Shown here in pieces: positions 2,819-25,768 of a DNA stretch of 37,794 bases (its first letter is position 1; every line of letters begins with the position of its first letter). The DNA comes from Methanomassiliicoccales archaeon (GTDB taxonomy: Archaea; Thermoplasmatota; Thermoplasmata; Methanomassiliicoccales; JAUVWO01). Below the pieces are notes generated by a model. That model ran no database searches. It saw only the letters and a list, made by a program, of their open reading frames with translations, and had not been told where the DNA came from. Location of the stretch: positions 1-37,794 of the forward strand of contig JAUVWO010000003.1 in NCBI GenBank assembly GCA_030604065.1, given 5' to 3'. Both the position numbers and the translations under genes were made by a program.

Positions 2819-4792
2819 TCACAGACCTCCTACAAGGTACGCGAGTATCAGTATCACTGACAGTCCCGCAATGACGACAGCGGCGTAGTTGTGCACGTTC
2901 CCGGTCTGCGCCTTCGAGAGGCGACGACCGAATCCCGTGATGCTACCGCTGACACCGTTGACGATACCGTCGATCCCGTTCTTGTCAAAGTAATCGACCA
3001 CCTTGGCCACCGGATAGATGACCTTGAGGCCGATCCCATCGAAAGCCTGGGGGAAGTAGTAGCGCTGCTGCAGCGTCTTGTAGACCTTGGCCCCTCCGGG
3101 GGAGGTTATCACATTGTCCACGTTGACAGAGCGCTTGACGTACATGTAATAGGCCAGAACTATGCCTGCGACGGCCAGACCTACGGACAGGTATGTCTTC
3201 CAATCGGTGAATATCTCCCCAAGCAGTTCCATTGATGTGATGTCATGGGCGTGACCGAAGAAGATACGGGACAAGAACCCGTCACCGATGAACAAGGCGA
3301 AGCCGGAGCTGAACGCGAAGACCGCCAGCACGACCAAGGGACCGGCCATGGAGGCCGGCGACTCGTGGGCGTGCTTGCATGCCTCCCCTTCCTCTCCAGC
3401 GAAGGTCATGAACCACAGCCTGAACATATAGAAAGCGGTCATGAAGGCGGTGATGGCGCCAAGGGCCCACAGGAGATAGAACATACTGTTGGCCTCTGCG
3501 GCATTCCAGACCGATGCCAGCACCTCATCCTTACTCCAGAATCCGCTGAACGGCGGAATCCCAGAGATGGATAGCGCGGCCACTAGCATCGCTATGCTGG
3601 TCACCTTCATCTTGCGTGATAGACCGCCCATCTTTCGCATGTCCTCCGTGCCCACGGCATGTATCACCGATCCGGCGCACAGGAAGAGCAGTGCCTTGAA
3701 GAAGGCGTGGTTGAACATATGGAACGTGCTGGCGGAGTATCCGTCAGCATATCCCAGATAGTAGAACGCATACCCGCCCGCTCCAAGGGCCAGCATCATA
3801 TAGGCTAGCTGGCTGATGGTAGAGTATGCGAGCACACGTTTTATGTTCATATTATTGAGCGCCATCGATGCGGCGAAGATCGCGGTGACCCCACCGATAA
3901 TGGCGATGACCAGCAGCACGTCCGGAACTTGGACGTACAGAGGGAAGGACCTGGCGACTAGGTAGACGCCGCCCTTGACCATGGTGGCTGCGTGAATGAG
4001 GGCGGACACAGTGGTCGGACCCTCCATCGCATCGGGAAGCCAATCATGTAGCGGAAACTGGGCGCTCTTGCCTATTGCACCGCCGAATATCAGCAGCATG
4101 GCGATCTGCAGGTTGTCCCAAGGCAGAGTGCCCATGGACGGGTCCACGATCGCTCGGTCGAACAGGTGAGTGTAGTTGAGGTCACCGAACTCGATGAACA
4201 GGATGATGATACCGGTCATCAGCATCACATCGCCCACTCTGGTGACCAGGAACGCCTTCTTGGCCGCGGAGGCGGCCGAGGGCCTGTGATTCCAGAACCC
4301 TATGAGCAGGTAGGAACATAGACCCATGATCTCCCAAAAGATGAACATCTCCAGGTAGTTGGAAGCGACCACCAGTCCGAACATGCCGGTTGCGAACAGA
4401 CATACCTCGGCATAGTAGCGTCTCTTCCTCGCACCCTCCTCGTGCATGTAGCCGATGGAGTAGACGAAAATAAGGAAGATCAGTATGCTGACGAATATCA
4501 GCATCATTGCGGTCAGGTTGTCCAGATAGATACCGAACTCAATGGTCAGGTCGTCGGTCAGCTGCAGCCAAGTGGTCTGCATGACGAAGGCCTCATCCGG
4601 CGTGGCCAGATCCCTTAAGAGGATCTCGATACCAACCCATATGGACAAGACACAGGCAGAAGCGGCGGCGATTATGGCCACCGGGGCTCCGCCCTCCTTC
4701 ATCCTGCCCCCAAAGAAGCCGATGATGATGAAACCGAGCACGGGTAGCAGCGGGATCAACCATGCGTATTGCAGTATGTCCATGTCTACCAC
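2819..4792 (-). CDS. nuoL/fpoL: Complex I-like subunit L
   Basis: 657 aa; SAQFPLHDWLPDAMEGPTTVSALIHAATMVKGGVYLVAR signature; C-terminal extension. Confidence 0.96.
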   Translation of the reverse strand: MVDMDILQYAWLIPLLPVLGFIIIGFFGGRMKEGGAPVAIIAAASACVLSIWVGIEILLRDLATPDEAFVMQTTWLQLTDDLTIEFGIYLDNLTAMMLIFVSILIFLIFVYSIGYMHEEGARKRRYYAEVCLFATGMFGLVVASNYLEMFIFWEIMGLCSYLLIGFWNHRPSAASAAKKAFLVTRVGDVMLMTGIIILFIEFGDLNYTHLFDRAIVDPSMGTLPWDNLQIAMLLIFGGAIGKSAQFPLHDWLPDAMEGPTTVSALIHAATMVKGGVYLVARSFPLYVQVPDVLLVIAIIGGVTAIFAASMALNNMNIKRVLAYSTISQLAYMMLALGAGGYAFYYLGYADGYSASTFHMFNHAFFKALLFLCAGSVIHAVGTEDMRKMGGLSRKMKVTSIAMLVAALSISGIPPFSGFWSKDEVLASVWNAAEANSMFYLLWALGAITAFMTAFYMFRLWFMTFAGEEGEACKHAHESPASMAGPLVVLAVFAFSSGFALFIGDGFLSRIFFGHAHDITSMELLGEIFTDWKTYLSVGLAVAGIVLAYYMYVKRSVNVDNVITSPGGAKVYKTLQQRYYFPQAFDGIGLKVIYPVAKVVDYFDKNGIDGIVNGVSGSITGFGRRLSKAQTGNVHNYAAVVIAGLSVILILAYLVGGL

Positions 4793-5088
4793 CTCATGAT
4801 GTTGACTTCATCGATGTCGGTCGTTCCACGGGACTTGTACAGATTGAGCAGTATGGCCAGTCCCACGGCCACCTCGGCAGCGGCGATCGCCATCGATATC
4901 AGAGCGAACGCCTGCCCCCTTGAATCGTTGAAGAACGATGAGAACGTTATGAAGTTCATGTTCGCAGCGTTGAGCATTATCTCAACTGACATCAGCACCA
5001 CGATGCCGTTCTTGGCGGTCATCACACCATAGGCGCCGATGACAAAGAGTATGGCTGCGAATCCCAGGAAATACTCGATCGGTATCAT
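4786..5088 (-). CDS. nuoK/fpoK: Complex I-like subunit K
   Basis: 100 aa; GVMTAKNGIVVLMSVEIMLNAANMNFI typical NuoK. Confidence 0.95.
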   Translation of the reverse strand: MIPIEYFLGFAAILFVIGAYGVMTAKNGIVVLMSVEIMLNAANMNFITFSSFFNDSRGQAFALISMAIAAAEVAVGLAILLNLYKSRGTTDIDEVNIMRW

Positions 5089-5321
5089 TCTTCACCCTCC
5101 TCCTTCGACAGGAAGGTCCCGCCGAGTAACGACGAGAACATGACGAATGCAAGCACCAGCAAGGCGGCGCCGAACAGCTCGAACAGTACCAGGGCCACAT
5201 CCCCGAAGGCGATGGACGACATGGTCTCCGAGCCCCACTCGACACTCACGATGGAACCAAGCATGATCACTAATAGCACCATACTGGCCAATCCAGCCGT
5301 GACCTTGTTGTTCACTTGCAC
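5085..5321 (-). CDS. nuoJ/fpoJ: Complex I-like subunit J, C-terminal part (split J)
   Basis: 78 aa membrane protein between J(N) and K; size and position match the split FpoJ arrangement. Confidence 0.8.
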   Translation of the reverse strand: MQVNNKVTAGLASMVLLVIMLGSIVSVEWGSETMSSIAFGDVALVLFELFGAALLVLAFVMFSSLLGGTFLSKEEGEE

Positions 5322-5695
5322 TCCTCCTCGTCAGTGAATACCGGACAGGTGCCGGTATCTCCAGGCAGCTTCTTCTTGGTCACCATGATGCCGAACACGA
5401 ACAGGATGCTGATGGCACCGAGGTACACCAGTATCTGCAGTATTCCTAGCAGGGTCGCCTCTAAAAAGAAGAAGGTGAAACCCACGCCAGCAAAGGTCAG
5501 GGCCATATAGAGGGCCGAGTGCACGACCTCCTTGGAGGTGACGCAGTACACGGCCCCCATTATGGTAGTGACCGCGATCATGAGGAAGAAGAAGGTGTCC
5601 CAGCCGAAGTCCTCGATAGCGTAGATCCAAGAGACCATAGCCAGTATCACAATGACCAGCATAGCGGCCCAAAATGTCTTCCAGCCAGATTTCAT
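5312..5695 (-). CDS. nuoJ/fpoJ: Complex I-like subunit J, N-terminal part
   Basis: 127 aa; VVHSALYMALTFAGVGFTFFFLEATLLGILQILVYLGAISILFVFGIMV typical NuoJ. Confidence 0.93.
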   Translation of the reverse strand: MKSGWKTFWAAMLVIVILAMVSWIYAIEDFGWDTFFFLMIAVTTIMGAVYCVTSKEVVHSALYMALTFAGVGFTFFFLEATLLGILQILVYLGAISILFVFGIMVTKKKLPGDTGTCPVFTDEEECK

Positions 5696-6441
5696 CAGAG
5701 CACCTCCTCAATATACATACAATCCTTAGGGCAGCCATCGATGCAGGTCTCGCAGACCACGCAATCCTCAGCCACGATCTTGGGCCTCTTGATAGGCTTG
5801 CCCTTAGCGTTGGTACCCACCTCCACCATCTCTATACAGTTGGTGGGGCAGTTCTTGGCGCACTTGCCACAACCGATACAGACATCGTTGTCGTACGCCA
5901 CGTAGTCACGGTCCCAAGGCGACTTGGCCTCTGGATCCGCAATGCCCTTCTCCAAGTCGGAAATGAGCACCTCATCGAGATGCACCTCATTGCCGGGCTC
6001 GTAGTCGGGCCAGGCCAGCTCATAGGGGTCGAACATCAATCCTTCCCTGGTGAACGAGCTCAACTCGAACTCCCGAGTGACGATCATAGCGTCAGTGGGA
6101 CAATACTCAGCGCAGTAACCGCACATCATACAGCGCCCGAGGAATATCTGCGGACGCTTGACCTTGCCCAGCTCTGGATCGTCCACCTCCACCATCTCGA
6201 TACAGGTGGTAGGGCATATGCGGGAGCATTTGCCACAGCCGATGCACTTGTCGAAGCGCAGGCCTGGACGTCCGCGGTAATTGGCGGGCAGGTTCTCGAT
6301 CTCATCAGGGTACTGGATGGTGTGTGGTCGGTTGATCGTGGTGCGGAGCATGGTCTTGAACGTGGTCCACATAGGTTTGAGGATCCACAGGTGCTTCGCG
6401 GTGTTGGGTGCATTGGCCGGACGCTCTACCATCCGAACCAC
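5695..6441 (-). CDS. nuoI/fpoI: Complex I-like subunit I with duplicated ferredoxin domain (four 4Fe-4S motifs)
   Basis: 248 aa; CIGCGKCSRICP, CMMCGYCAEYCP, CIGCGKCAKNCP, CVVCETCIDGCP. Confidence 0.93.
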   Translation of the reverse strand: MVRMVERPANAPNTAKHLWILKPMWTTFKTMLRTTINRPHTIQYPDEIENLPANYRGRPGLRFDKCIGCGKCSRICPTTCIEMVEVDDPELGKVKRPQIFLGRCMMCGYCAEYCPTDAMIVTREFELSSFTREGLMFDPYELAWPDYEPGNEVHLDEVLISDLEKGIADPEAKSPWDRDYVAYDNDVCIGCGKCAKNCPTNCIEMVEVGTNAKGKPIKRPKIVAEDCVVCETCIDGCPKDCMYIEEVL

Positions 6442-7511
6442 CCCCAGTACTTAGCTGCTATCACAAATATCAGGTTGATTATCGACAACGGGAACAGCCT
6501 CCTCCATCCCAGGTTGATAATGATGTCAGTGGTGACACGGACCAAAGAGGCGCGAATCCAGATGTAGATGAACCAGATGATAAACACCTTGGCCAGATAC
6601 CAAACGAAACCGGGCAGGATGTCCGGACCAGCGAAGCCGCCCAGGAACAGATAGACCATCATTGCTATGGTCACGTAGCCACGGAAGTAGTCGCCCAGCA
6701 TTACCAGGCCCCATCGCATGCCACCGATCTCTGTCTGCCATCCCTCTACCAGCTCCGCCTCTGCCTCAGGCAGGTCAAATGGGGTCCTCTCCGATTCCGC
6801 GATGGCGGCGACGAAGAAAGTGATGAAACCGATGAACATGGGCAGTATGAACCAGCCGTGCTCCGCCTGGAACTCAGTGAGCCCAACGAACGTCCATGTA
6901 CCAGCAGCGAGGACCACGGCCACGATGCAGAGCAGCATGGGGATCTCGTAGCTGATCATCTGGGTGGCGGCCCTGAGGCCGCCCATAACGGAATACTTGC
7001 AGTTACCGGCCCATCCGGCTATGAGTATCATCAGCGGGGGCAGGCAGAACAATCCGAAGATGAACAGCACACCCACGTCGTAGTTCAGAAGGAATATCTG
7101 GTCACTTATGGGCACCGCGCCAGCGCACAGGACACTGATGCCTATGAGCAGGGCGGTGGACCATGTGTAGACCATGTCGTCAACGCCCTGGGGGATGATT
7201 ATCTGCTTGCCGAATGTCTTGAGTCCATCAGCGAAGTTGCACAGGTAACCCAGGGGACCGACCTGTGTCGCTCTCCGGTCCATCATCCTGCCTAGCACCT
7301 TCCGTTCCATCCATATCATGGTTAGGCACAGCATGAAGGAGACGGCGAATATCACTATGGTCTGGATCAGCAATGAGAGTATGTGCATGGTGTTGAAACT
7401 GGCCCACCAGTCTGCCCAACCATGCCATCCTAATCCATTGTTGACCCAGTTGATTATCGCCACCAGGATTTCGGCTATGTCGTGTGAGAAGTCGTATACC
7501 GTGTATACCAT
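6426..7511 (-). CDS. nuoH/fpoH: Complex I-like subunit H
   Basis: 361 aa; ERKVLGRMMDRRATQVGPLG and ESERTPFDLPEAEAELVEGW signatures. Confidence 0.97.
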   Translation of the reverse strand: MVYTVYDFSHDIAEILVAIINWVNNGLGWHGWADWWASFNTMHILSLLIQTIVIFAVSFMLCLTMIWMERKVLGRMMDRRATQVGPLGYLCNFADGLKTFGKQIIIPQGVDDMVYTWSTALLIGISVLCAGAVPISDQIFLLNYDVGVLFIFGLFCLPPLMILIAGWAGNCKYSVMGGLRAATQMISYEIPMLLCIVAVVLAAGTWTFVGLTEFQAEHGWFILPMFIGFITFFVAAIAESERTPFDLPEAEAELVEGWQTEIGGMRWGLVMLGDYFRGYVTIAMMVYLFLGGFAGPDILPGFVWYLAKVFIIWFIYIWIRASLVRVTTDIIINLGWRRLFPLSIINLIFVIAAKYWGWFGW

Positions 7512-7515
7512 GTGA

Positions 7516-8601
7516 TCACCGGTCCGTTTCTCCGATACAGATGTCTATCGTTCCCATGATGGCAGGGATGTCGGCTATCTTGTACCCCATGCATAGGCGC
7601 TTCGCCAACGAAGTGTTGACGAAGTTGGGCGAACGGATGCTGACCCGGTAGGGTCTCTCGGTCCCATCGCCCACCACATAGGCCATCGACTCTCCGCGCG
7701 GATCCTCGATCCGGGCCATCCCAGTGCCGACCGGCGCCTTACGAGGCACCTTTACCCTGATGGGGCCGGACTTGGGCATCCTCTCCACGCACTGGCGGAT
7801 GAGGTCGCAGCTGGTCTTGATCTCCTCCAGCCTGACCATCCATCGAGACCATGCATCGCCACCGTTATCGACGGCGGCCTCGAAGTCGAGCTCCTCGTAG
7901 ATCTCATACGGGTCCTTCTTCCGGATGTCCCACGGAATTCCACAAGCCCTCAGATTGGGACCAGAAAAGCCCATATTGATCGCTTCCTCGGCGGATATCT
8001 TACCCACACCGATGGTCCTCTCCTGAAATATCTTGGACTGCACCGACAGCGACTCGTGCTCCTTCATACGGAAATCGACATGATCCGCGAAACGCACACA
8101 GGCGTCGAGGAAGTTCGGGGGCAGCTCGTTGCGCACCCCGCCGATCCTCGGGTAGTTGGTGGTAAGCCTCTGCCCGCACAGCTGCACGAACAGGTCCATG
8201 GCGATCTCCCTCTCTCTGAGTCCGTACAGGAATATGGTGAAATTGCCCAGATCGGTGCCCACCGCAGCCAGCCACATGAAATGCGACGAGATCCTGTTGA
8301 TCTCGTCAGTGATCGTCCGTATCCACATGGCCCGCTCGGGCACTTCAATACCGTACAGGTCCTCGACACCCATCACGTACAAGTGGCTCCACGACATCGA
8401 AGAGCAGTAGCACAGACGGTCGGCCATAGGTATTATCTGGGGGTACAAGCGTGCTTCGCACTCCTTCTCCCAGCCTCGGTGCAGGTACCCGATGATGGGG
8501 TCTGCATCGGTGACGACCTCGCCGTCCAGCTTGACCTTCAGGGTCCACAGCCCATGGTTGAATGGATGCTGCGGCCCCATGTTGACCCACATCTCTGCCA
8601 T
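7516..8601 (-). CDS. nuoD/fpoD: Complex I-like subunit D (49 kDa type)
   Basis: 361 aa; MGPQHPFNHGLWTLKVKLDGE, HRGWEKECEARLYPQ, C-terminal DIPAIMGTIDICIGETDR. Confidence 0.96.
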   Translation of the reverse strand: MAEMWVNMGPQHPFNHGLWTLKVKLDGEVVTDADPIIGYLHRGWEKECEARLYPQIIPMADRLCYCSSMSWSHLYVMGVEDLYGIEVPERAMWIRTITDEINRISSHFMWLAAVGTDLGNFTIFLYGLREREIAMDLFVQLCGQRLTTNYPRIGGVRNELPPNFLDACVRFADHVDFRMKEHESLSVQSKIFQERTIGVGKISAEEAINMGFSGPNLRACGIPWDIRKKDPYEIYEELDFEAAVDNGGDAWSRWMVRLEEIKTSCDLIRQCVERMPKSGPIRVKVPRKAPVGTGMARIEDPRGESMAYVVGDGTERPYRVSIRSPNFVNTSLAKRLCMGYKIADIPAIMGTIDICIGETDR

Positions 8602-9077
8602 TATATCTGCCTCCCTACCTTGAAGCTCTTCCGGAACGGGAAGAACTTATAATCATCAGCTAGCAACAGCTGCTCCATGCGGGGGTGTCCCTTGAAATCG
8701 ATACCGAACAGTTCGAAGGTCTCCCGCTCATGCCAGTTGGCCCCTTCCCATAGAGGCGTGACGGAATCCACGACGAGGTCATCGTTAGGAATGTCCACCA
8801 GGATCTCGACCAGCACCCCGGTCTCGTAGTTGGATATATGATGGACGGTCTGCATGTGCTCGACCCAATCGATACCGGAGACCATGGAACAGTGAGCGAA
8901 GTTGAGCTCGTCCTTGAGCATGGTGCACAGCTCGAAGAGCCGTTCACGCTTGGCCTTGAAGCTTATCCTCCTCGCCTTCTGCGATTGCAGGTCTACATCA
9001 CCAGCAAAGTGCGACTGCACCGCCTGGATGACCGCCTCCTCACTGGGGGCAAGGATCTTATTAGCGTTTCCTTCCAT
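8601..9077 (-). CDS. nuoC/fpoC: Complex I-like subunit C (30 kDa type)
   Basis: 158 aa; WHERETFELFGIDFKGHPRMEQLLL signature. Confidence 0.95.
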   Translation of the reverse strand: MEGNANKILAPSEEAVIQAVQSHFAGDVDLQSQKARRISFKAKRERLFELCTMLKDELNFAHCSMVSGIDWVEHMQTVHHISNYETGVLVEILVDIPNDDLVVDSVTPLWEGANWHERETFELFGIDFKGHPRMEQLLLADDYKFFPFRKSFKVGRQI

Positions 9078-9091
9078 GTGATCACCTCGGA

Positions 9092-9673
9092 CTACTCCCG
9101 ACCTCTTGCGTTCAGGAACAGGCCCTTCTCGCCGATCTCGGCGGATATCTTCTGCTGCAGCAGCATGAAGCCGTCGATCAAGGCGTCCGGACGCGCCGGG
9201 CAGCCTGGTACATACACATCGACCGGGATGAACGAGTCCACGCCCTGAATGATATTGAACGAATCATACCAAGGACCTCCGGATATGGCGCACTCCCCCA
9301 TCGCCACCACCCACTTAGGGTCCGGCATCTGTTCGTATAGACGCCTCAGGGCTGGCCTGACCTTCTTGGTGACCCAGCCATTGACAAGCAATACATCGGT
9401 CTGTCTCGGGGACGAACGATATATGGTTCCCAATCGCTCCAGATCGAACTTGGAGTCCGATGCCGCCGCCATCTCCAGGGCGCAACATGCGAGCCCGAAA
9501 TGCAGCGGATGTATGGAATTCTTGAAGGCCCATGCCTCCACAGGCCCCAATATCTTGTTCAACCCTTTCTGGACGCCAGTGGCCTTCATGAGCTCCTCGA
9601 TCTTCTCCGTAGACCAGTTCATGAACTCCCCTGCTGACATCCCTACCGCATACGGATAGATGCTCATATCCAT
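9092..9673 (-). CDS. nuoB/fpoB: Complex I-like subunit B (20 kDa type)
   Basis: Start trimmed to MDMSIYPYAVG; N2 cluster Cys in ACCALEM, GECAISGG, VPGCPARPDALIDG. The longer ORF start (9742) would overlap nuoA. Confidence 0.94.
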   Translation of the reverse strand: MDMSIYPYAVGMSAGEFMNWSTEKIEELMKATGVQKGLNKILGPVEAWAFKNSIHPLHFGLACCALEMAAASDSKFDLERLGTIYRSSPRQTDVLLVNGWVTKKVRPALRRLYEQMPDPKWVVAMGECAISGGPWYDSFNIIQGVDSFIPVDVYVPGCPARPDALIDGFMLLQQKISAEIGEKGLFLNARGRE

Positions 9674-10107
9674 AGCTTCTCCTCCTTCCTTAGCGCGTAA
9701 CCCACGCCTATGAGCACTATTGTCAAGAAGATCAACATCCACATGATAGCTGTATCAGAAAGTTCAGAGAAATAATAGGCCCATACCAGAAGGAACACAC
9801 TTATCAAGTCAAAAACAACGAAGACTATTGCGTATATGTAATATTGATACCTGAATTCAATGTGTGCCTCGCCCATGGCGGGAGTTCCACACTCATAGGT
9901 GGACCTCTGCAGGGTGGAGCTGGTGTGGGGTCGGATGAATCTCGACAGCCACCATGCCAGTGGTGCAAATCCTAATGCCAATAACGCAAAGAATGCGACC
10001 GGCAGATAATCCTCCACAAGCATTGCCATCAGGAAACTCATGTAATTATTTAAAGGTTGCATCTGGCTATGAAATACCATAAGTCGACCCAGCATGCTGG
10101 CGGTCAA
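9664..10107 (-). CDS. nuoA/fpoA: Complex I-like subunit A (exact start uncertain)
   Basis: STYECGTPAMGEAHIEFRYQYYIYAIVFVVFDLISVFLLVWA typical NuoA; start may be an internal Met (MVFHSQM, MQPLNNY or MSFLMAM). Confidence 0.93.
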   Translation of the reverse strand: MTASMLGRLMVFHSQMQPLNNYMSFLMAMLVEDYLPVAFFALLALGFAPLAWWLSRFIRPHTSSTLQRSTYECGTPAMGEAHIEFRYQYYIYAIVFVVFDLISVFLLVWAYYFSELSDTAIMWMLIFLTIVLIGVGYALRKEEKLWI

Positions 10108-15696: not shown

Positions 15697-16578
15697 TCAC
15701 TTCGAACGGGCACGCTCCGCGGCCAGCACAGTATTGCTCATCAGCATGATGATGGTCATCGGCCCCACACCCCCTGGCGAGGGGGTGATCGCCTTGCATC
15801 GGCCCTTGACCGCATCGAAGTCCACGTCCCCTGTAAGACGGTAGCCGCGCTTGGCGGTGGGATCGTCGACCCGGTTGGTGCCTACGTCGATGACCACGGC
15901 ACCCTCCTTGACCATATCAGCAGTGATGAAGTGGGGGCGGCCGATCGCGGCGATGAGAATGTCCGCCTGCCGGGTGAAGGACGGCAGATCGCGGGTGCGA
16001 GAGTGGCATATGGTGACGGTGGCATTGGCCCCGGATGCCTTCTGGACCAGCATGGCCGCTATAGGTTTGCCCACGATATTGCTACGTCCCACCACAACCA
16101 CATGTTTTCCACTGGTCTCGATCCCGCTTCGCACCAGTAGCTCCTGGATCCCAGCCGGGGTGGCCGGTCGGAAGCCCGGATCGCCGATGAGGATGCGCCC
16201 CATGCTCACCGGATGGAAACCGTCCACATCCTTCTCGGGATCGATGGCTGATATGACCTTGTTCTCATCGATGTGATCTGGAACCGGCAACTGGCACAGG
16301 ATACCATGTACCGCCGGGTCGCGGTTGAGGCGATCGATCATGTCCAGCAGATCCTCCTCCGATATAGAGGCGGGAAGCTCATGTGTCCATGAGTTCAGAC
16401 CCAGATCGGCGCACATCCTTCCTTTCATGCGTACGTAGGACCGCGATGCCGGGTTCTCGCCTACGATGATGACCGCGAGACCAGGAACGACGCCACCCTG
16501 CTTGAGGGCTGCGATCCTGTCCACCAACTCATCCTTGACCTCCGCCGCGATCCTCTTGCCGTCGATGATGAGGGTCAT
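15697..16578 (-). CDS. folD: Bifunctional methylene-THF dehydrogenase / methenyl-THF cyclohydrolase
   Basis: SRSYVRMKGRMCADLGL, GILCQLPVPDHIDENKVISAIDPEKDVDGFHPVSMGRI, VVVGRSNIVGKPIAAML, TPSPGGVGPMTI; start at MTLIIDGKRIAAEV. Confidence 0.97.
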   Translation of the reverse strand: MTLIIDGKRIAAEVKDELVDRIAALKQGGVVPGLAVIIVGENPASRSYVRMKGRMCADLGLNSWTHELPASISEEDLLDMIDRLNRDPAVHGILCQLPVPDHIDENKVISAIDPEKDVDGFHPVSMGRILIGDPGFRPATPAGIQELLVRSGIETSGKHVVVVGRSNIVGKPIAAMLVQKASGANATVTICHSRTRDLPSFTRQADILIAAIGRPHFITADMVKEGAVVIDVGTNRVDDPTAKRGYRLTGDVDFDAVKGRCKAITPSPGGVGPMTIIMLMSNTVLAAERARSK

Positions 16579-16692
16579 GCCATCACTGGTTAAGCGGGGC
16601 GGTCTATTCAAGCTTTGCCCGGGATGGACTATGCGCACCCACCGTTCCCTAGGTCGACCATGGTCAGGCCCACGATCGCATGGGGCGGCACC

Positions 16693-16699
16693 TTTTATA
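16693..16699 (+). promoter_or_regulatory. Candidate TATA box for fhs
   Basis: tttataa about 45 nt upstream of fhs ATG (16742); GGAGG at about 16729-16733. Confidence 0.5.
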
Positions 16700-16741
16700 A
16701 TCGATGACCCAGTTCCCCGACATGGCAGCGGAGGAACTTGT

Positions 16742-18415
16742 ATGAAGAATGAGCTGGAGATCGCCATGGCATACGATGCTATGCCCATCGCCGATGTGGC
16801 GGCATCCATCGGACTTTCCCCCAACGAGATAGAGCCCTACGGCAAGCATGTGGCCAAGGTGCCCCTGGATGTGCTGAGGCCCTATATGAACAAGCCAAAG
16901 GGGAAACTTGTACTGACCACCGCCATCACCGCCACCCCAGCAGGCGAGGGGAAGACCGTTACCACCATCGGCCTCGCGCAGGGCCTGGGGCGACTGGGGG
17001 TCAACGTCATCGGCTGTCTGCGAGAGCCATCACTAGGTCCCACCTTCGGGATCAAGGGTGGTGCCACCGGCGGCGGCCGATCGCAGGTGTACCCCATGTG
17101 GGACATCGACCTGCACTTCACCGGTGACATACATGCTGTGGGCGCAGCCCACAACCTTCTCTCAGCCATGACCGAGAACCATCTGGCCAAGGGCAACGAG
17201 CTGGATCTGGACCCGACCAAGATCGTATTGCGCAAAGCTTTGGATATGAACTGCCGGGAGTTGCGCCAGATAGTGGTCGGACTGGGAGGACGCAGCGCTG
17301 GTGGGGTGTGCCACGAAAGTGGGTTCCTCATCACCTCAGCCTCCGAGATCTCTGCCATAATCGCCCTGGCCACCAGCTTCGCCGAGCTGCGCTCCATGCT
17401 CAACCGGATCATAGTCGGGTACAATATGAGCGGACAGCCTGTACGGGCGGAGCAGATGGGGTGCGTCGGCGCCATGATGGTGTTACTCAAGGACACACTT
17501 AAACCCAACCTGGTCCAGACCCTGGAAGGACAGCCTATGTTCATACACGGGTTCCCGTTCGCCAACATCGCCCATGGCAGCAGCTCCCTGATCGCCACCA
17601 AGACAGCGCTGGGCATGGCCGACGTGGTGCTGACCGAGGCGGGGTTCGCAGCAGATCTGGGGGCGGAGAAATTCTTCAACATCGTGTGTCGCAAGGGCGG
17701 TATCGCCCCCGACTGCGCAGTACTAGTGGCATCGGTGCGGGCACTCAAGATGCATGGCGGCACTGATCTGAGAGAAGTGAATGACGAGAACGTCGACGCC
17801 CTGTGCCGCGGGTTCGTCAACCTGGACCGCCATGTGATGAATGTTCGCCGCTTCGGGGTGCCGGTGGTGGTGGCCATAAACCATTTCGCCAGTGACACCG
17901 ATGTGGAGTTGGAGATGATCCAAGCCCACTGCGAGGAGCTGGGGGTGCGCTACGCAATATCCGAAGTCTATGCCAAGGGCGGTGAAGGCGGCCTAGAGCT
18001 GGCCCGAGAGGTGATGGATGTTCTGGAGAATGAGCCCGCAGATTTCCAGATGCTGTACGAGGAGGAGATGTTCATCAAGGCCAAGATCGAGCACATCGCC
18101 AATGATGTCTATGGTGCCAAGGACGTCAAGTACCTGCCATTAGCGGAGAGACAGATGGCCCAGATAGTCCAGAATGGCGATGATCGCGTGCCGGTATGCA
18201 TGGCCAAGACCCAAGCATCCATCACCGACAATCCGGCCATGAAAGGTGCGCCCACCGGATGGACGCTTACGGTGCGTGAGGTCCTATGCTCCGCGGGAGC
18301 GGGGTTCGTGGTGCCGGTCTGCGGCACCATCATGCTGATACCAGGGCTGCCTTCGAATCCGGCGGCCAACCGTATAGATCTGACCGATGATGGCAGGATC
18401 GTCGGGCTCAGATGA
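16742..18415 (+). CDS. fhs: Formate--tetrahydrofolate ligase
   Basis: 557 aa; LVLTTAITATPAGEGKTVTTIGLAQGL, REPSLGPTFGIKGGATGGGRSQVYPM, FHFTGD-like LHFTGDIHAVGAAHNLLSA; start trimmed to MKNELEIAM. Confidence 0.97.
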   Translation: MKNELEIAMAYDAMPIADVAASIGLSPNEIEPYGKHVAKVPLDVLRPYMNKPKGKLVLTTAITATPAGEGKTVTTIGLAQGLGRLGVNVIGCLREPSLGPTFGIKGGATGGGRSQVYPMWDIDLHFTGDIHAVGAAHNLLSAMTENHLAKGNELDLDPTKIVLRKALDMNCRELRQIVVGLGGRSAGGVCHESGFLITSASEISAIIALATSFAELRSMLNRIIVGYNMSGQPVRAEQMGCVGAMMVLLKDTLKPNLVQTLEGQPMFIHGFPFANIAHGSSSLIATKTALGMADVVLTEAGFAADLGAEKFFNIVCRKGGIAPDCAVLVASVRALKMHGGTDLREVNDENVDALCRGFVNLDRHVMNVRRFGVPVVVAINHFASDTDVELEMIQAHCEELGVRYAISEVYAKGGEGGLELAREVMDVLENEPADFQMLYEEEMFIKAKIEHIANDVYGAKDVKYLPLAERQMAQIVQNGDDRVPVCMAKTQASITDNPAMKGAPTGWTLTVREVLCSAGAGFVVPVCGTIMLIPGLPSNPAANRIDLTDDGRIVGLR

Positions 18416-19229
18416 GGTCGACGAGCCGCCCCAGGGTCTCGAACCCGATCTCATCGTCCAATTCGATCAACGTGCGCCTGAGGCATTCGATGCCATTGGC
18501 GACATCCTCCTGGCTTAGGGCGCCTCGGGACACGGTCTCCATCAGGTGCCAGCTGTGGGTAGCTATAACCAGAACGCCTTCCTCCAGACCCTTGCCCAGG
18601 CAGACGTAGTCCTCGACCGTGCGCTCACCCTCATGAAAGGGCCACAGATAGCTGACGATCACCTTGCCATTGCGGTCCCTGGACCGGGCCACTGGAAACT
18701 CAGCCAACCCATTGGGCATCAAGGATGGCAGCAGCCGTCCGCCAACGATATCCCGCTTCAACGATGAATCGTACCTGAAACCAGAGGCAGCCACCGCGTC
18801 CAGCACGATGTCGTTGCACTCCAGGTAAGGAGCGCGGAAACCCTCCACCGCGGTGCCGAAGATGTCTTTCAACGCCGATCGTGAGTGGCGCAGGATGTCC
18901 CGTACCTCAATGTCATCCATACCAATGCCAGTGAGCCTGCCGGTCAGGTCCTCATGCGCCCAACCATGGCAGGCGACCTCGTGCCCCGAAAGCATGGAAG
19001 GCAGATCATAGGACTCAGACAGCTTGGCGGCAGTCTCCGCCTCCATGAAGAACGTGCCCTTGATGCCGATCTCGTCGAGAAGCTTCACTATCGCCTCCAA
19101 GCCCGCAGCGGTGGAGCGGAATCTTGGCGACGGGTCCCCATCAACAGGACATGAGCCAGCATCCATTTGGCCGGGAATAGGCGTGTTCACATCCCGATCG
19201 ACGTCTATGGTGAATGAAGCGACCCGCAT
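18408..19229 (-). CDS. Polysaccharide deacetylase family protein
   Basis: FTIDVDRD, GIKGTFFMEAE, SGHEVACHGWAHEDLT, FRAPYL motifs. Confidence 0.88.
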   Translation of the reverse strand: MRVASFTIDVDRDVNTPIPGQMDAGSCPVDGDPSPRFRSTAAGLEAIVKLLDEIGIKGTFFMEAETAAKLSESYDLPSMLSGHEVACHGWAHEDLTGRLTGIGMDDIEVRDILRHSRSALKDIFGTAVEGFRAPYLECNDIVLDAVAASGFRYDSSLKRDIVGGRLLPSLMPNGLAEFPVARSRDRNGKVIVSYLWPFHEGERTVEDYVCLGKGLEEGVLVIATHSWHLMETVSRGALSQEDVANGIECLRRTLIELDDEIGFETLGRLVDLI

Positions 19230-19285
19230 CTCAAACCTCCAAAGATACCCCTTCCTCGGACCCGTAAGGGTCGGGGAGGGGTCGT

Positions 19286-19295
19286 TGACATGTCA
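19286..19295. promoter_or_regulatory. Perfect palindrome TGACATGTCA in the divergent intergenic region upstream of metF
   Basis: Direct reading of tgacatgtca. Confidence 0.35.
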
Positions 19296-19414
19296 TCAAA
19301 ACATCGCATGGGATATCAATATGACGGCACCTGACATCTTGAGGGTCGGGTTGGGGCAAAACGTATTAATCGGGTCATGCGTCATGGGTGCCATCCAAGG
19401 CAGGTGAGCGGGAT

Positions 19415-20344
19415 ATGACGATGTTTTCAGGCAGTAGGCTAGAACGGCTGCTGCGACAGGGCGATTTTGTGGTCACGGCAGAACTGGGGCCCCCACGCTC
19501 GGCGGAACCGGGATCGGTGCTGCGCAAGGCCCGCATGCTCAAGGGATACGCGGATGCCCTCAACCTTACCGACAACCAGACGGCGATGGTGCGTATGTCC
19601 AGCGTGGCCTGTAGCGTCCTTGTCATGCAGGAGGGGCTGGAGCCGATATTGCAGATGACCTGCCGAGACCGCAACCGCATCGCCATGCAGTCCGAGTTGC
19701 TGGGCGCCTCGGCGCTGGGCATAAGGAACCTGCTGTGCATAACCGGCGACCCCCATACGTGTGGCACCGAAAAGGATGCCATGGACGTGTTCGACGTCAA
19801 CTCGAACAGGCAGCTGAGCATGTTCCGACGCCTGCGGGACGAATCCATCATGGACTCCGGCTTCGAGGTCAAGGCCCCGCCCAAGGTGTTCCTGGGAGCG
19901 GCGGCCGACCCCATGGGCGGACCGCCTGAGATAGGGGTGACAATACTGGAGGCCAAGGTGGTCGCAGGGGCGGACTTCATCCAGACCCAGGCCATATTCG
20001 ACGTGGACGGATTCGACGCCTGGATGGATGAGGTCAGACGTAGAGGCGTGCACCAGAAGATATTCATCCTGCCGGGCGTGATACCTCTCAAATCGGTCAA
20101 GGCCGCGAGATACATGCACGAGAACGTCCCAGGCATCGAGATACCTGATCACATCATGGAAAGGATGAAGGCGGCCGATGACCCTCCAGCAGAGGGCGTG
20201 AACATCTGCCTCGAGCTGATCGATCACCTGCGCTCCGTGGAAGGAGTGCACGGCATACATATCATGGCCGTGGCCTGGGAGTCCGTGGTGCCAGAGATAG
20301 TGAAGAGGGCCGGGCTGTACCCGCGACCCGATGTCAGGCCCTAA
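19415..20344 (+). CDS. metF: Methylenetetrahydrofolate reductase family protein
   Basis: FVVTAELGPPRSAEPGSVLRKARMLKGYADALNLTDNQ, NLLCITGDPH, AGADFIQTQAIFDVDGFDAWM; start trimmed to MTMFSGSRLE. Confidence 0.88.
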   Translation: MTMFSGSRLERLLRQGDFVVTAELGPPRSAEPGSVLRKARMLKGYADALNLTDNQTAMVRMSSVACSVLVMQEGLEPILQMTCRDRNRIAMQSELLGASALGIRNLLCITGDPHTCGTEKDAMDVFDVNSNRQLSMFRRLRDESIMDSGFEVKAPPKVFLGAAADPMGGPPEIGVTILEAKVVAGADFIQTQAIFDVDGFDAWMDEVRRRGVHQKIFILPGVIPLKSVKAARYMHENVPGIEIPDHIMERMKAADDPPAEGVNICLELIDHLRSVEGVHGIHIMAVAWESVVPEIVKRAGLYPRPDVRP

Positions 20345-21242
20345 GGAAGTCGTCGGCGTAGAGCCTCTCGTTCCGCAACACTTGTCCTGCCTTGAGGACG
20401 TCCATCAGCTCTTGGTCCTCGGGATCGCAGATGGCAGCACTGAGGCCGGCCCCCATGAGCATAGCCAGATAGGTACGGTTCAGAACCCCCCTCATCTTGG
20501 CCCCATTGGACACGTTGCTGAGCCCTACCACAGTGCGGAGCGGAGGGTCGTCGAGCATACGTAACATGCGCACCGCATCCACAACTTTCATGCTCTGATC
20601 CTGGGCCGCCCTAACTGGCAACACCAGCGGATCGATCAGAAGACGATCGGGCATGATGCCGTGCTCCATGGCGGTGGTGACCATGACCATGGCCATCCCG
20701 GTACGGGACTCGGCATCATTGGGGATGCCTCGCTCGTCCATGGCCAAGCATATGATCTCTGCGTCATGTTCCTGACATAGAGGGAACAGTTGCGCCATCC
20801 TTTCGGCCTCGGCGGTGGTGGAGTTGATTATTGGGGAACGGTCGCAGACCTCCATGCCCCCAACCACGGTCATCACATCTGGCGAGTCGATACAGAGCTG
20901 AACGTCAGTGACCTCCTGGACCGTATGGACCAACCACCTCATGGCCTCGACGGCGTCGTCCCTTCCTGGTCCGGTGTTCACGTCCAATACGGTGGCGCCT
21001 GCTTCCACTTGTCGCAGCGCAAGCGCCTGCACGAAGTTCTCGTCCCTATCGTCTATGGCCCTGCCCACCGATCGAAACAGGCCGTTTATCCTCTCGCTGA
21101 TGACGATCATCTGCTCAACAGGTCGAGCATGAGCAGCCCGATTAAAAACATTGTGGCCCCTTGATATGGAAGGTTCAGGGTCGATGCCTAGATCTGACGG
21201 ATCGATGATGGGTTCGACCTTGCCCCGCCACTTGCGCAACAT
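20334..21242 (-). CDS. acsE: Methyltetrahydrofolate:corrinoid methyltransferase, AcsE-like
   Basis: ISERINGLFRSVGRAIDDRD, RQVEAGATVLDVNTGPGRDDAVEAMRWLVHTVQEV, PIINSTTAE, LLIDPLVLPVRAAQDQ, TVVGLSNVSNG, NRTYLAMLMGAGLSAAICDPED closely resemble acetogen AcsE. Confidence 0.85.
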   Translation of the reverse strand: MLRKWRGKVEPIIDPSDLGIDPEPSISRGHNVFNRAAHARPVEQMIVISERINGLFRSVGRAIDDRDENFVQALALRQVEAGATVLDVNTGPGRDDAVEAMRWLVHTVQEVTDVQLCIDSPDVMTVVGGMEVCDRSPIINSTTAEAERMAQLFPLCQEHDAEIICLAMDERGIPNDAESRTGMAMVMVTTAMEHGIMPDRLLIDPLVLPVRAAQDQSMKVVDAVRMLRMLDDPPLRTVVGLSNVSNGAKMRGVLNRTYLAMLMGAGLSAAICDPEDQELMDVLKAGQVLRNERLYADDFLRA

Positions 21243-22973: not shown

Positions 22974-24203
22974 TCAGAAAAAGGCCAGCAGCGCCCCGAT
23001 AAGGGCGGTGATGAGCCCCACCACCGTCAGCGGCAGAGTATAGCCGCGCAACACCCCTCCGACATCATCGTTCAGATAGCGGGATATCACCCAGAAGTAC
23101 GGATCGCTCACGATGGAGAGCGTCATTGCACCGCCTCCGATGAGCAGCACCAGACCCCATGGATTGATGGCAGCCAGCTCCGGTACCGACGCCTCGATCG
23201 TTGACGCCACTGTGACCGATACCAGCCTAGATCCCTGGGCAGCCTGCACCAACGCCGTGAGTATGAACGGGACCAACACCACCGGCAACATGTTACCGGA
23301 CTGAAGCAGGTCGCTTATCTCGGCTGGAAAACCGCTGGCGGCGATGACCGCGCCGAATGCCCCAGCACCACACAGATCGAATATTATCACTCCGGCACTG
23401 CGGGTGCCTGCCATGACCGCCCTCTGCCTCTCCGCCTGGCCGATCATGGCGAAGGCCACCAGCATGGATAGGAACAATGCGACGCTAAGATCCGCCAGAG
23501 GTTCCAGGCCAGGGATCACGGTGCCTATGCCGATGAGCACGAACGGCGCCATGATCGACCCCCATGCCTTGGATCTAGGGCCGCCGGGGGAGGGTTCGGA
23601 GGCAGGCTCCACACCTCTGCGCCTGAACCAGATGTAGATGACCGATAGCAACGCCAGCGACAGAGGTATGGTGATCATATCGATGCCCCATGGATCCGTC
23701 ACCGAGAGATTCTCAAGCATGATCACCACCGCTGGCGAGGGGTAGACGAGCACGTACGAGACCACCGAGGCCACCGCTATGGCGTAACCCACGGTCCGCT
23801 GCGATCTGGCACCCTCCGCAAGCCGGGTCACTATAGGAGATGATACGATGAAGTTGGTAATGCAGCACATGAGCGGCACCGACAGGATGTACCCGCCCAC
23901 GGCGCCGGTCGCCACCGGGTCCCTCGCAACCCGGCGGATGTCGTTCACCAGGGTGTCTATCAGCCTCCCTTCGGCCAGGCATCGTGAGATCAGAACTCCT
24001 GAGAACACCACCACACCTAGTATGGAGAACAGGCGTCCAGCTCCGCCAAGAGAAATGTCAACGACATTCTCCGCACCCATCCCGGCCAACAATCCGAACA
24101 GCAGGCTGGCCCCGAACAGGCTCACGAACGGAGGAGCCTTGAATCGAACCGTCGCCACCACTACGATGACGAGGCAGATAAGGAAGGACAGGAGGGCCTG
24201 CAT
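22974..24203 (-). CDS. GntP-family permease
   Basis: Polytopic; VVVFSGVLISRCLAEGRLIDTLVNDI, VPLMCCITNFIVSSPI, GYAIAVASVVSYVLVYPSPAVV. Confidence 0.75.
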   Translation of the reverse strand: MQALLSFLICLVIVVVATVRFKAPPFVSLFGASLLFGLLAGMGAENVVDISLGGAGRLFSILGVVVFSGVLISRCLAEGRLIDTLVNDIRRVARDPVATGAVGGYILSVPLMCCITNFIVSSPIVTRLAEGARSQRTVGYAIAVASVVSYVLVYPSPAVVIMLENLSVTDPWGIDMITIPLSLALLSVIYIWFRRRGVEPASEPSPGGPRSKAWGSIMAPFVLIGIGTVIPGLEPLADLSVALFLSMLVAFAMIGQAERQRAVMAGTRSAGVIIFDLCGAGAFGAVIAASGFPAEISDLLQSGNMLPVVLVPFILTALVQAAQGSRLVSVTVASTIEASVPELAAINPWGLVLLIGGGAMTLSIVSDPYFWVISRYLNDDVGGVLRGYTLPLTVVGLITALIGALLAFF

Positions 24204-24219
24204 GGCGGGGGCCTCCTTC

Positions 24220-24423
24220 TCAGTCGTCCTTGAACTCGGGCACGATGGGCTCACCGGCCGCCTTGCGCTTCAGGTGTCCGCCGGGCCCCCCGCGCTCTTC
24301 CCTGGCCTTATCAATACATTCCTCATCATCGCATACGTAGGCCGCGAACAGGAAGTGCTTTGCCTGCCGTCCACAGAAATGGCACCGGTTCTGCTCGATG
24401 TCGCTCATCGCCACCACATCCAT
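24220..24423 (-). CDS. Small zinc-binding-motif protein
   Basis: 67 aa; CHFCGRQAKHFLFAAYVCDDEECIDKA four-Cys knuckle. Confidence 0.6.
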   Translation of the reverse strand: MDVVAMSDIEQNRCHFCGRQAKHFLFAAYVCDDEECIDKAREERGGPGGHLKRKAAGEPIVPEFKDD

Positions 24424-24498
24424 TTTGGCCTATTTGCGCCTTTCTGGGGAAGATAGATATGGAATGTGTCCATAATAAACAGCGTGCCATATCGGATC

Positions 24499-24975
24499 AT
24501 GGAGCTCAACCGCCCCCTAGAGGTGGATGAGATAGCCCGTGCCTCAAACCTGGACAGATGTACTGGTTGCCATCGCTGCACCAGAGTGTGCCCGGCCTCG
24601 GAACATGGCGGAGTGGTGCCCCATCAGGTGGTGGCCGAGACTCAAGAGGGCACTGTGGACCTGTCCCAGGACTCGATGATCTGGAAATGCCTGATGTGCA
24701 ACATATGCAGCCATGTATGCCCGGTACGGATCAATCCGTCCTACTTGATCACCCTGCTGCGCAATGCCTCGGCCGAGCGTGGCCATGCCCCCAAACGGTA
24801 CATGGAGGCGCGGTCGATGGTTCGTTCCAGCGGGCGATCCTTTCCCAACACCCGGCTGACCTCCAAGATGAGGGGCGAGCTGGGCCTGCCCCCGCTCAAC
24901 GATGACCAGGAAGCGGTGGACGAGCTGTTGATGCTGTGGTCCACCACCCCAATGGGGGATGACGGCGATGAATGA
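24499..24975 (+). CDS. hdrC: Heterodisulfide reductase subunit C-like
   Basis: CTGCHRCTRVCP and CLMCNICSHVCPVRINP two 4Fe-4S motifs; followed by overlapping hdrB-like gene. Confidence 0.88.
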   Translation: MELNRPLEVDEIARASNLDRCTGCHRCTRVCPASEHGGVVPHQVVAETQEGTVDLSQDSMIWKCLMCNICSHVCPVRINPSYLITLLRNASAERGHAPKRYMEARSMVRSSGRSFPNTRLTSKMRGELGLPPLNDDQEAVDELLMLWSTTPMGDDGDE

Positions 24976-25768
24976 GATCTACCTCTACACTGGCTGCCTG
25001 ATCCCCACCCGTCTGCCACATTTGGAGAGAGCGAGCACATTCGTGCTCGACGCCCTTGGTGTCGACTACGAACGCATGCCGGGTCAGACCTGCTGCGTCG
25101 AACCCATCGGCCTGAGGTCACTGGGAGTGGAGGCTTGGATGGTGGGTGCGGCCCGCATCCTGGCCATGGCCGAACGCGATGGCCGCGACCTGCTGACCCT
25201 GTGCAACGGATGCTACATGAGTCTGAGCCAGGCACGAATGCTGCTGATGGACCTGGATGAACGCGCCCGGGTGAACCGGGTCCTGGAACCCATAGACCTG
25301 GAGTATGGCGGCGATGTGAATGTCTGGAACGTGGCCGAATTTGTCCATGCCATGGGCAAGAGGAAGTTCAAGGACACGGTCCGTTCCCCGCAACGAAGGC
25401 AGGTGGCGTTGCATCCAGGCTGCCACATGACTGAAGCCCCGATAATGGACGGTTTCGATGCCCTCTCCATCCTGGAGGACATCCTGACGTGGTGCGGGGC
25501 CGAAGTCGTGTGCTGGGGCGAAGGCATGTGCTGTGGTGGCGGCCTCTCGGGGGTGGACGACCGCATATCCAAAGCGGTCATGGACGCCACACTCACCACA
25601 TACCGCGATAGCGGAGCTGGAACAGTTATCACTCCATGTCCATTCTGCTTCATCCAGTTCGACGTGCGGGGCAGATCGCTCCCCGCACTGTTCCTGACCC
25701 AGCTGATGGCGCTGGCGCTCGGAGCGGATGAAGAGGCCATCGGCCTTCGCTATCACCGCACCCGATGA
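24959..25768 (+). CDS. hdrB: Heterodisulfide reductase subunit B-like
   Basis: Two CCG-type motifs: YTGC...QTCCVEP...CNGC and HPGC...MCCGGG...CPFC. Confidence 0.9.
   Translation: MTAMNEIYLYTGCLIPTRLPHLERASTFVLDALGVDYERMPGQTCCVEPIGLRSLGVEAWMVGAARILAMAERDGRDLLTLCNGCYMSLSQARMLLMDLDERARVNRVLEPIDLEYGGDVNVWNVAEFVHAMGKRKFKDTVRSPQRRQVALHPGCHMTEAPIMDGFDALSILEDILTWCGAEVVCWGEGMCCGGGLSGVDDRISKAVMDATLTTYRDSGAGTVITPCPFCFIQFDVRGRSLPALFLTQLMALALGADEEAIGLRYHRTR

Follow-up and report, generated by a model that had tools for sequence, protein, structure and literature searches.

How does the proton-pumping complex I receive electrons when it lacks its input module, the head that ordinarily oxidizes NADH or F420? 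The N6a and N6b clusters of NuoI lie between the input module and cluster N2. A search for one conserved donor protein to headless complex I failed (PMC11238625). Methanomassiliicoccales, methanogens of gut and sediment, are thought to depend for energy conservation on an Fpo-like complex, and the question arises anew from a 37,794-nucleotide stretch of one of their genomes (contig JAUVWO010000003.1; hereafter, the window), in which subunit I of this complex carries a second ferredoxin-like module. A fused input module in subunit I would offer a concrete and testable answer to the problem of electron entry for one branch, and mechanistic work would have a defined target in the extra module.

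A headless complex I operon

The complex I operon of the window lies on the minus strand in the order A-B-C-D-H-I-J-J-K-L-M-N. It comprises fpoA/nuoA (9664–10107; NuoA family matches), fpoB/nuoB (9092–9742; NF005012 and TIGR01957 over cut-off), fpoC/nuoC (8601–9077; TIGR01961), fpoD/nuoD (7516–8601; NF004739 at 430.5 bits, cut-off 360) and fpoH/nuoH (6426–7511; NuoH family matches), the end of which overlaps the start of fpoI. On the other side of fpoI, fpoJ (5086–5695) is divided between two overlapping ORFs, an N-terminal half (5312–5695; Oxidored_q3) and a short C-terminal half (5086–5315; read by eye); a J-N/J-C split of this kind is given for Methanomassiliicoccales in Table 6 of PMC4153887. 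The operon continues with fpoK/nuoK (4786–5088; Oxidored_q2), fpoL/nuoL (2819–4792) and fpoM/nuoM (1307–2818), the latter two with family matches, and ends with the 5′ part of fpoN/nuoN (1–1306), an open frame of antiporter-like sequence and no family score that runs off the contig start.

The genome to which the window belongs (G000; 1.43 Mb) contains mcrA and HdrB-, HdrC- and HdrD-like genes. Neither NuoF (PF01512) nor FpoF/FrhB (PF04432) had a match in this genome, which is around 90% complete. The complex is therefore a headless, 11-subunit complex I, and the absence of NuoEFG/FpoF input that the original prediction had assumed is borne out.

Subunit I contains two ferredoxin modules

The fpoI gene (5695–6441, minus strand) is a single ORF for 248 amino acids that starts with GTG (an ATG three codons inward would give 245) and stays open from start to stop without a frameshift. 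Its identity as NuoI/FpoI, first read by eye from the sequence, is confirmed by a score of 141.1 bits against the NuoI model TIGR01971 (cut-off 113.05; HMMER match to residues 29–141) and by its place between nuoH and nuoJ in nuoABCDHIJKLMN, an order shared by its relatives. Standard NuoI has exactly two 4Fe–4S motifs; the window protein has four CX2CX2CX3C motifs, starting at Cys66, Cys104, Cys188 and Cys227, just as predicted, and is therefore a variant of the NuoI family and not a standard member. The dicluster ferredoxin families Fer4_7 and Fer4_21 each match it twice (HMMER). Other assignments were rejected. The FpoI of Methanosarcina-type F420H2 dehydrogenase has a homologous module 1 (residues 29–143 of the window protein), but its 135-position model, NF040612, gave 101.8 bits (cut-off 180), and the genome has no FpoF partner (PF04432). 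Scores against the polyferredoxin families were far below cut-off (NF045874, 51.6 against 600; NF042909, 69 against 375).

The interval 5719–6246, on which the original prediction centred, corresponds to codons 66–241 and covers both ferredoxin modules. Module 1 (codons 62–120; 6082–6258, minus strand) is the canonical NuoI dicluster, presumed to be that of N6a/N6b: the NuoI model matches it (108.3 bits for the module alone in a six-frame search), in a tree it falls among the module 1 sequences of two-cluster NuoI, and its eight ligands (Cys66, 69, 72 and 76, and Cys104, 107, 110 and 114) are all invariant in 61 sequences. A linker of around 67 residues (codons 121–187; 5881–6081, minus strand), which is acidic across Methanomassiliicoccales (mean net charge −5.8), joins it to module 2 (codons 188–248; 5698–5880, minus strand), an extra, ferredoxin-like dicluster with the ligands Cys188, 191, 194 and 198, and Cys227, 230, 233 and 237.

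Aligned with each other, the two window modules are 49% identical over 63 columns, with one 1-residue gap and a score of 165. In 2,000 shuffles of module 2 that kept the Cys/CP frame, scores averaged 45.7 (SD 12.7) and reached at most 97, so the repeat is real beyond the common cysteine frame. The match in the CIEMVEV and KRP segments, also pointed out beforehand, is striking, and similarity is unusually strong in this genome, as the identity between modules is the highest among 66 genomes (mean 36%). Among solved sequences, module 1 was best matched by NdhI/NuoI, and module 2 by polyferredoxin modules of MvhB (9sw6_G) and 9sfi_T.

An AlphaFold2 monomer model (62-sequence alignment, no cofactors) had a mean pLDDT of 86 and a pTM of 0.72, with both module cores above about 92 and the linker moderately modelled (mostly 74–96). 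Its top folds in the PDB were NuoI chains of complex I, at partial coverage, with FwdF polyferredoxin lower down; none of the complex I chains listed covered the whole protein.

Conservation and spread of the extended subunit

The four-cluster form is order-wide among the genomes sampled. In a protein scan, the long FpoI was present in all 47 named Methanomassiliicoccales loci, 46 of them with four motifs, the remaining one (L049) being cut by a contig end after the third motif. In a phylum scan, all 57 listed Methanomassiliicoccales genomes had a match, at full length in 55 and as partial or split frames in two (G304 and G337). We therefore rejected a frameshift or an assembly fusion, a possibility that had been raised beforehand. 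Across 61 full-length sequences from the order, conservation is at least 98% at every one of the 16 cluster cysteines (98–100% in module 2), but does not extend to the additional cysteines 202 and 241. Over 117 pairs, module 1 had a dN/dS of 0.074, the linker 0.103 and module 2 0.110, ratios that are rough because synonymous sites are fairly saturated (pS around 0.6), and module 2 is, judged by its value of about 0.11, under purifying selection.

We then considered the distribution across Thermoplasmatota. Homologue searches, envisaged from the outset as a check, found the four-cluster architecture also in at least six further families: f7, f13, f18 and f20 of the same class, and f24 and f40 of the same phylum. 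Another family of the class, f11, has an even longer NuoI of 302 amino acids with six 4Fe–4S motifs in three modules (L109, 6962–7867, plus strand), in an 11-subunit complex I operon. Loci with extended NuoI keep the complex I gene order within the stretches examined; in f13 and f20, A and B lie separately from the other genes. Two-cluster NuoI occurs in families f9, f22, f33 and f25, and one such complex I, in f9 (L117), is headless, with no match to PF01512 or PF04432. The two-cluster NuoI of f25 (L116, 6665–7273, plus strand) has a long C-terminal tail rich in Lys, Glu, Pro and Ala (KKEPAKEAAKEPAKEP...), perhaps another route to subunit extension. No viral contigs were found.

In a tree of NuoB, NuoD and NuoH (895 columns), a single branch separates every extended form from the two-cluster ones, and one change would explain them, with weak support (64/64); the window adjoins Methanomethylophilaceae-like sequences. 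A link between the module and methanogenesis or anaerobic life was rejected: none of the examined genomes outside Methanomassiliicoccales contained mcrA, and four-cluster carriers in f7, f18, f24 and f40 have a haem–copper oxidase. The genomes of some module-bearing relatives (G347, G300 and G026) do encode members of the NuoF or FrhB families.

The second module is ancient

The doubled structure might have come about by a recent, lineage-specific internal tandem duplication or gene conversion and have no functional meaning. Over their first 21 codons, the window modules share 81% DNA identity, the highest value among 66 genomes (next 70%, mean 55%), which may mark a local gene-conversion patch in the window lineage. 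However, module 1 and module 2 are as similar within a genome (120.2 ± 15.9) as across genomes (118.8 ± 14.5), so neither has recently been copied from the other, and the architecture extends throughout the order and beyond. The CIEMV segment looks like a retained state, because it is shared by module 2 of other lineages (L119/L083 and L114). In the module tree, every NuoI module 1, whether of a two-cluster or a four-cluster form, falls into one group (96/85), and most module 2 sequences fall into another (98/88); because modules at the same position in different families group together, the split between the two is older than Methanomassiliicoccales. A recent origin is thus very improbable, and the internal tandem duplication of the original prediction does not survive as a recent event. 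Module 2 may instead have arisen long ago, by duplication of module 1 or by fusion with a captured ferredoxin. Both routes are compatible with approximately unbiased (AU) tests, in which, on 64 columns with several long branches, neither grouping module 1 with module 2 (P = 0.126) nor placing module 2 alone (P = 0.234) was rejected.

A tethered ferredoxin as the probable electron entry

We propose, with a probability of roughly 60%, that module 2 is a tethered 2[4Fe–4S] ferredoxin that feeds headless complex I from soluble ferredoxin. Module 1 would hold N6a and N6b, as in ordinary NuoI, and the covalently attached C-terminal 2[4Fe–4S] module would serve as a built-in ferredoxin. Soluble reduced ferredoxin, supplied in the methanogen by HdrABC–MvhADG and 2-oxoacid oxidoreductases, would meet module 2 at the place that NuoEFG or FpoF would occupy elsewhere. 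Electrons would then run from module 2 through N6a and N6b to N2 in FpoB, and on to one of the final acceptors considered in the literature, a quinone-like carrier or HdrD. The data establish the four-cluster architecture, how well it is conserved, its setting in a headless operon, its distribution and its age; from these we infer that the clusters are occupied, where module 2 sits, which way electrons flow and what the partner is.

The intact ORF at the I position, the conserved ligands, the purifying selection on module 2, the confident modelling of both modules and the absence of NuoF and FpoF all favour a ferredoxin-type extension, as originally suggested, as the likeliest function. Module 2 resembles MvhB/FwdF-type polyferredoxin modules, which are electron relays, and we count this in favour of an input wire. 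Because the module occurs in headless operons with and without a haem–copper oxidase, a shared input function is suggested and not one tied to methanogenesis. The literature also points to ferredoxin: the Fpo-like complex of M. luminyensis carries out membrane-bound ferredoxin oxidation (PMC7374477), the Methanomassiliicoccales complex is described as oxidizing ferredoxin, with electrons thought to reach HdrD (PMC7374477 and PMC6019823), and ferredoxin is the likely donor to the headless complex I of aerobic Thermoplasmata (PMC9038741). Against the wire, we count the linker, which at around 67 residues could place module 2 past tunnelling range; against a ferredoxin dock, for which a strongly positive surface is expected, we count the weak mean net charge of module 2 (+1.4). 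The NuoF or FrhB family genes of some module-bearing relatives also weigh against the proposal. Because headless complex I with an ordinary two-cluster NuoI exists elsewhere in the phylum, electrons can evidently enter without the module, which more probably alters affinity, reach or partner choice.

Could module 2 work at the other end of the pathway, as an output or docking arm that hands electrons to HdrD, or holds it, for heterodisulfide reduction? Such an arm would fit the proposed Fpo–HdrD ferredoxin:heterodisulfide oxidoreductase. Methanomassiliicoccales have HdrD without HdrE, and direct contact between Fpo and HdrD has been proposed (PMC7374477 and PMC10804542); in the window genome, HdrD-like ORFs on contigs C110 and C125 join Fer4 and CCG domains. 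We nevertheless regard it as unlikely. Thermoplasmatota families that lack mcrA, several of them equipped with a haem–copper oxidase, have the module too, and heterodisulfide is not expected in them; its presence in non-methanogens disfavours a dedicated HdrD arm. In known complex I, moreover, NuoI sits towards the electron-input side of the chain of clusters. A role as a mainly structural element, capping the open N-module site and stabilizing the arm with its clusters off the productive path, would accord with the long linker and with the two-cluster headless complex I of the phylum, which implies input without the module. Yet all eight cluster ligands of module 2 are kept at 98–100%, and the module is constrained nearly as much as module 1, beyond the needs of a cap. 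Such strict ligand conservation disfavours a mere cap, which we likewise hold to be improbable.

Extending the tethered-ferredoxin reading beyond the window is more tentative, and we would put it somewhat short of even odds. In a large clade of headless complex I from archaea, which includes methanogens as well as Thermoplasmatota with an oxidase, serial NuoI ferredoxin modules (two, and once three) may have replaced the N-module. Complex I would then bring its own ferredoxin, and the number of modules would set the reach of the wire and the donor accepted.

Relation to known complexes

The window FpoI shares with NuoI/Nqo9/TYKY the operon position, the N-terminal helix, the YP-E segment, the two CX2CX2CX3CP motifs of module 1 and the NuoI profile. 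It differs in having an additional dicluster module: by sequence, NuoI chains of known structure match it only to around residue 173, and no four-cluster complex I chain was among the solved-structure matches listed. NdhI of photosynthetic complex I (NDH-1) belongs to a similarly headless, ferredoxin-fed complex and is homologous to module 1. NdhI has two clusters, and ferredoxin docking is helped by extra subunits, whereas the extra piece of the window complex sits inside subunit I. Such extra subunits are mentioned in PMC11238625. The polyferredoxins MvhB and FwdF have the dicluster repeats most similar to module 2, but are separate subunits of other complexes, whereas the window repeat is fused to NuoI. 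The Fpo-like complex of Methanosaeta/Methanothrix is also ferredoxin-driven and without FpoF; the accessible portion of its description (PMC12918732) does not mention a four-cluster FpoI. Within the openly available literature, the accessible portions of the Fpo papers PMC4153887, PMC5011839, PMC6147122, PMC7374477, PMC7824343 and PMC10804542, of an overview of fusion proteins in archaea (PMC11237513) and of a complex I survey (PMC12361115) contain no mention of a four-cluster FpoI/NuoI.

Other genes of the window

Elsewhere in the window, an HdrC–HdrB-like pair (24466–25768) scored 63.6 bits (HdrC; cut-off 160) and 173.6 bits (HdrB; cut-off 345), and looks like a divergent paralogue because contig C5 carries a stronger match to HdrC. 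A gene resembling GntP-family (gluconate-type) transporters, below the cut-offs of named models (22974–24254), is flanked by PurH-like and HdrC-like genes. At 15697–21242, ORFs that read as FolD-, Fhs- and MetF-like genes of tetrahydrofolate C1 metabolism lie beside a methyltransferase that exceeds the cut-off of NF005719 (methyltetrahydrofolate:corrinoid protein), and this C1 set recalls the Lake Pavin Methanomassiliicoccales genome (PMC6147122).
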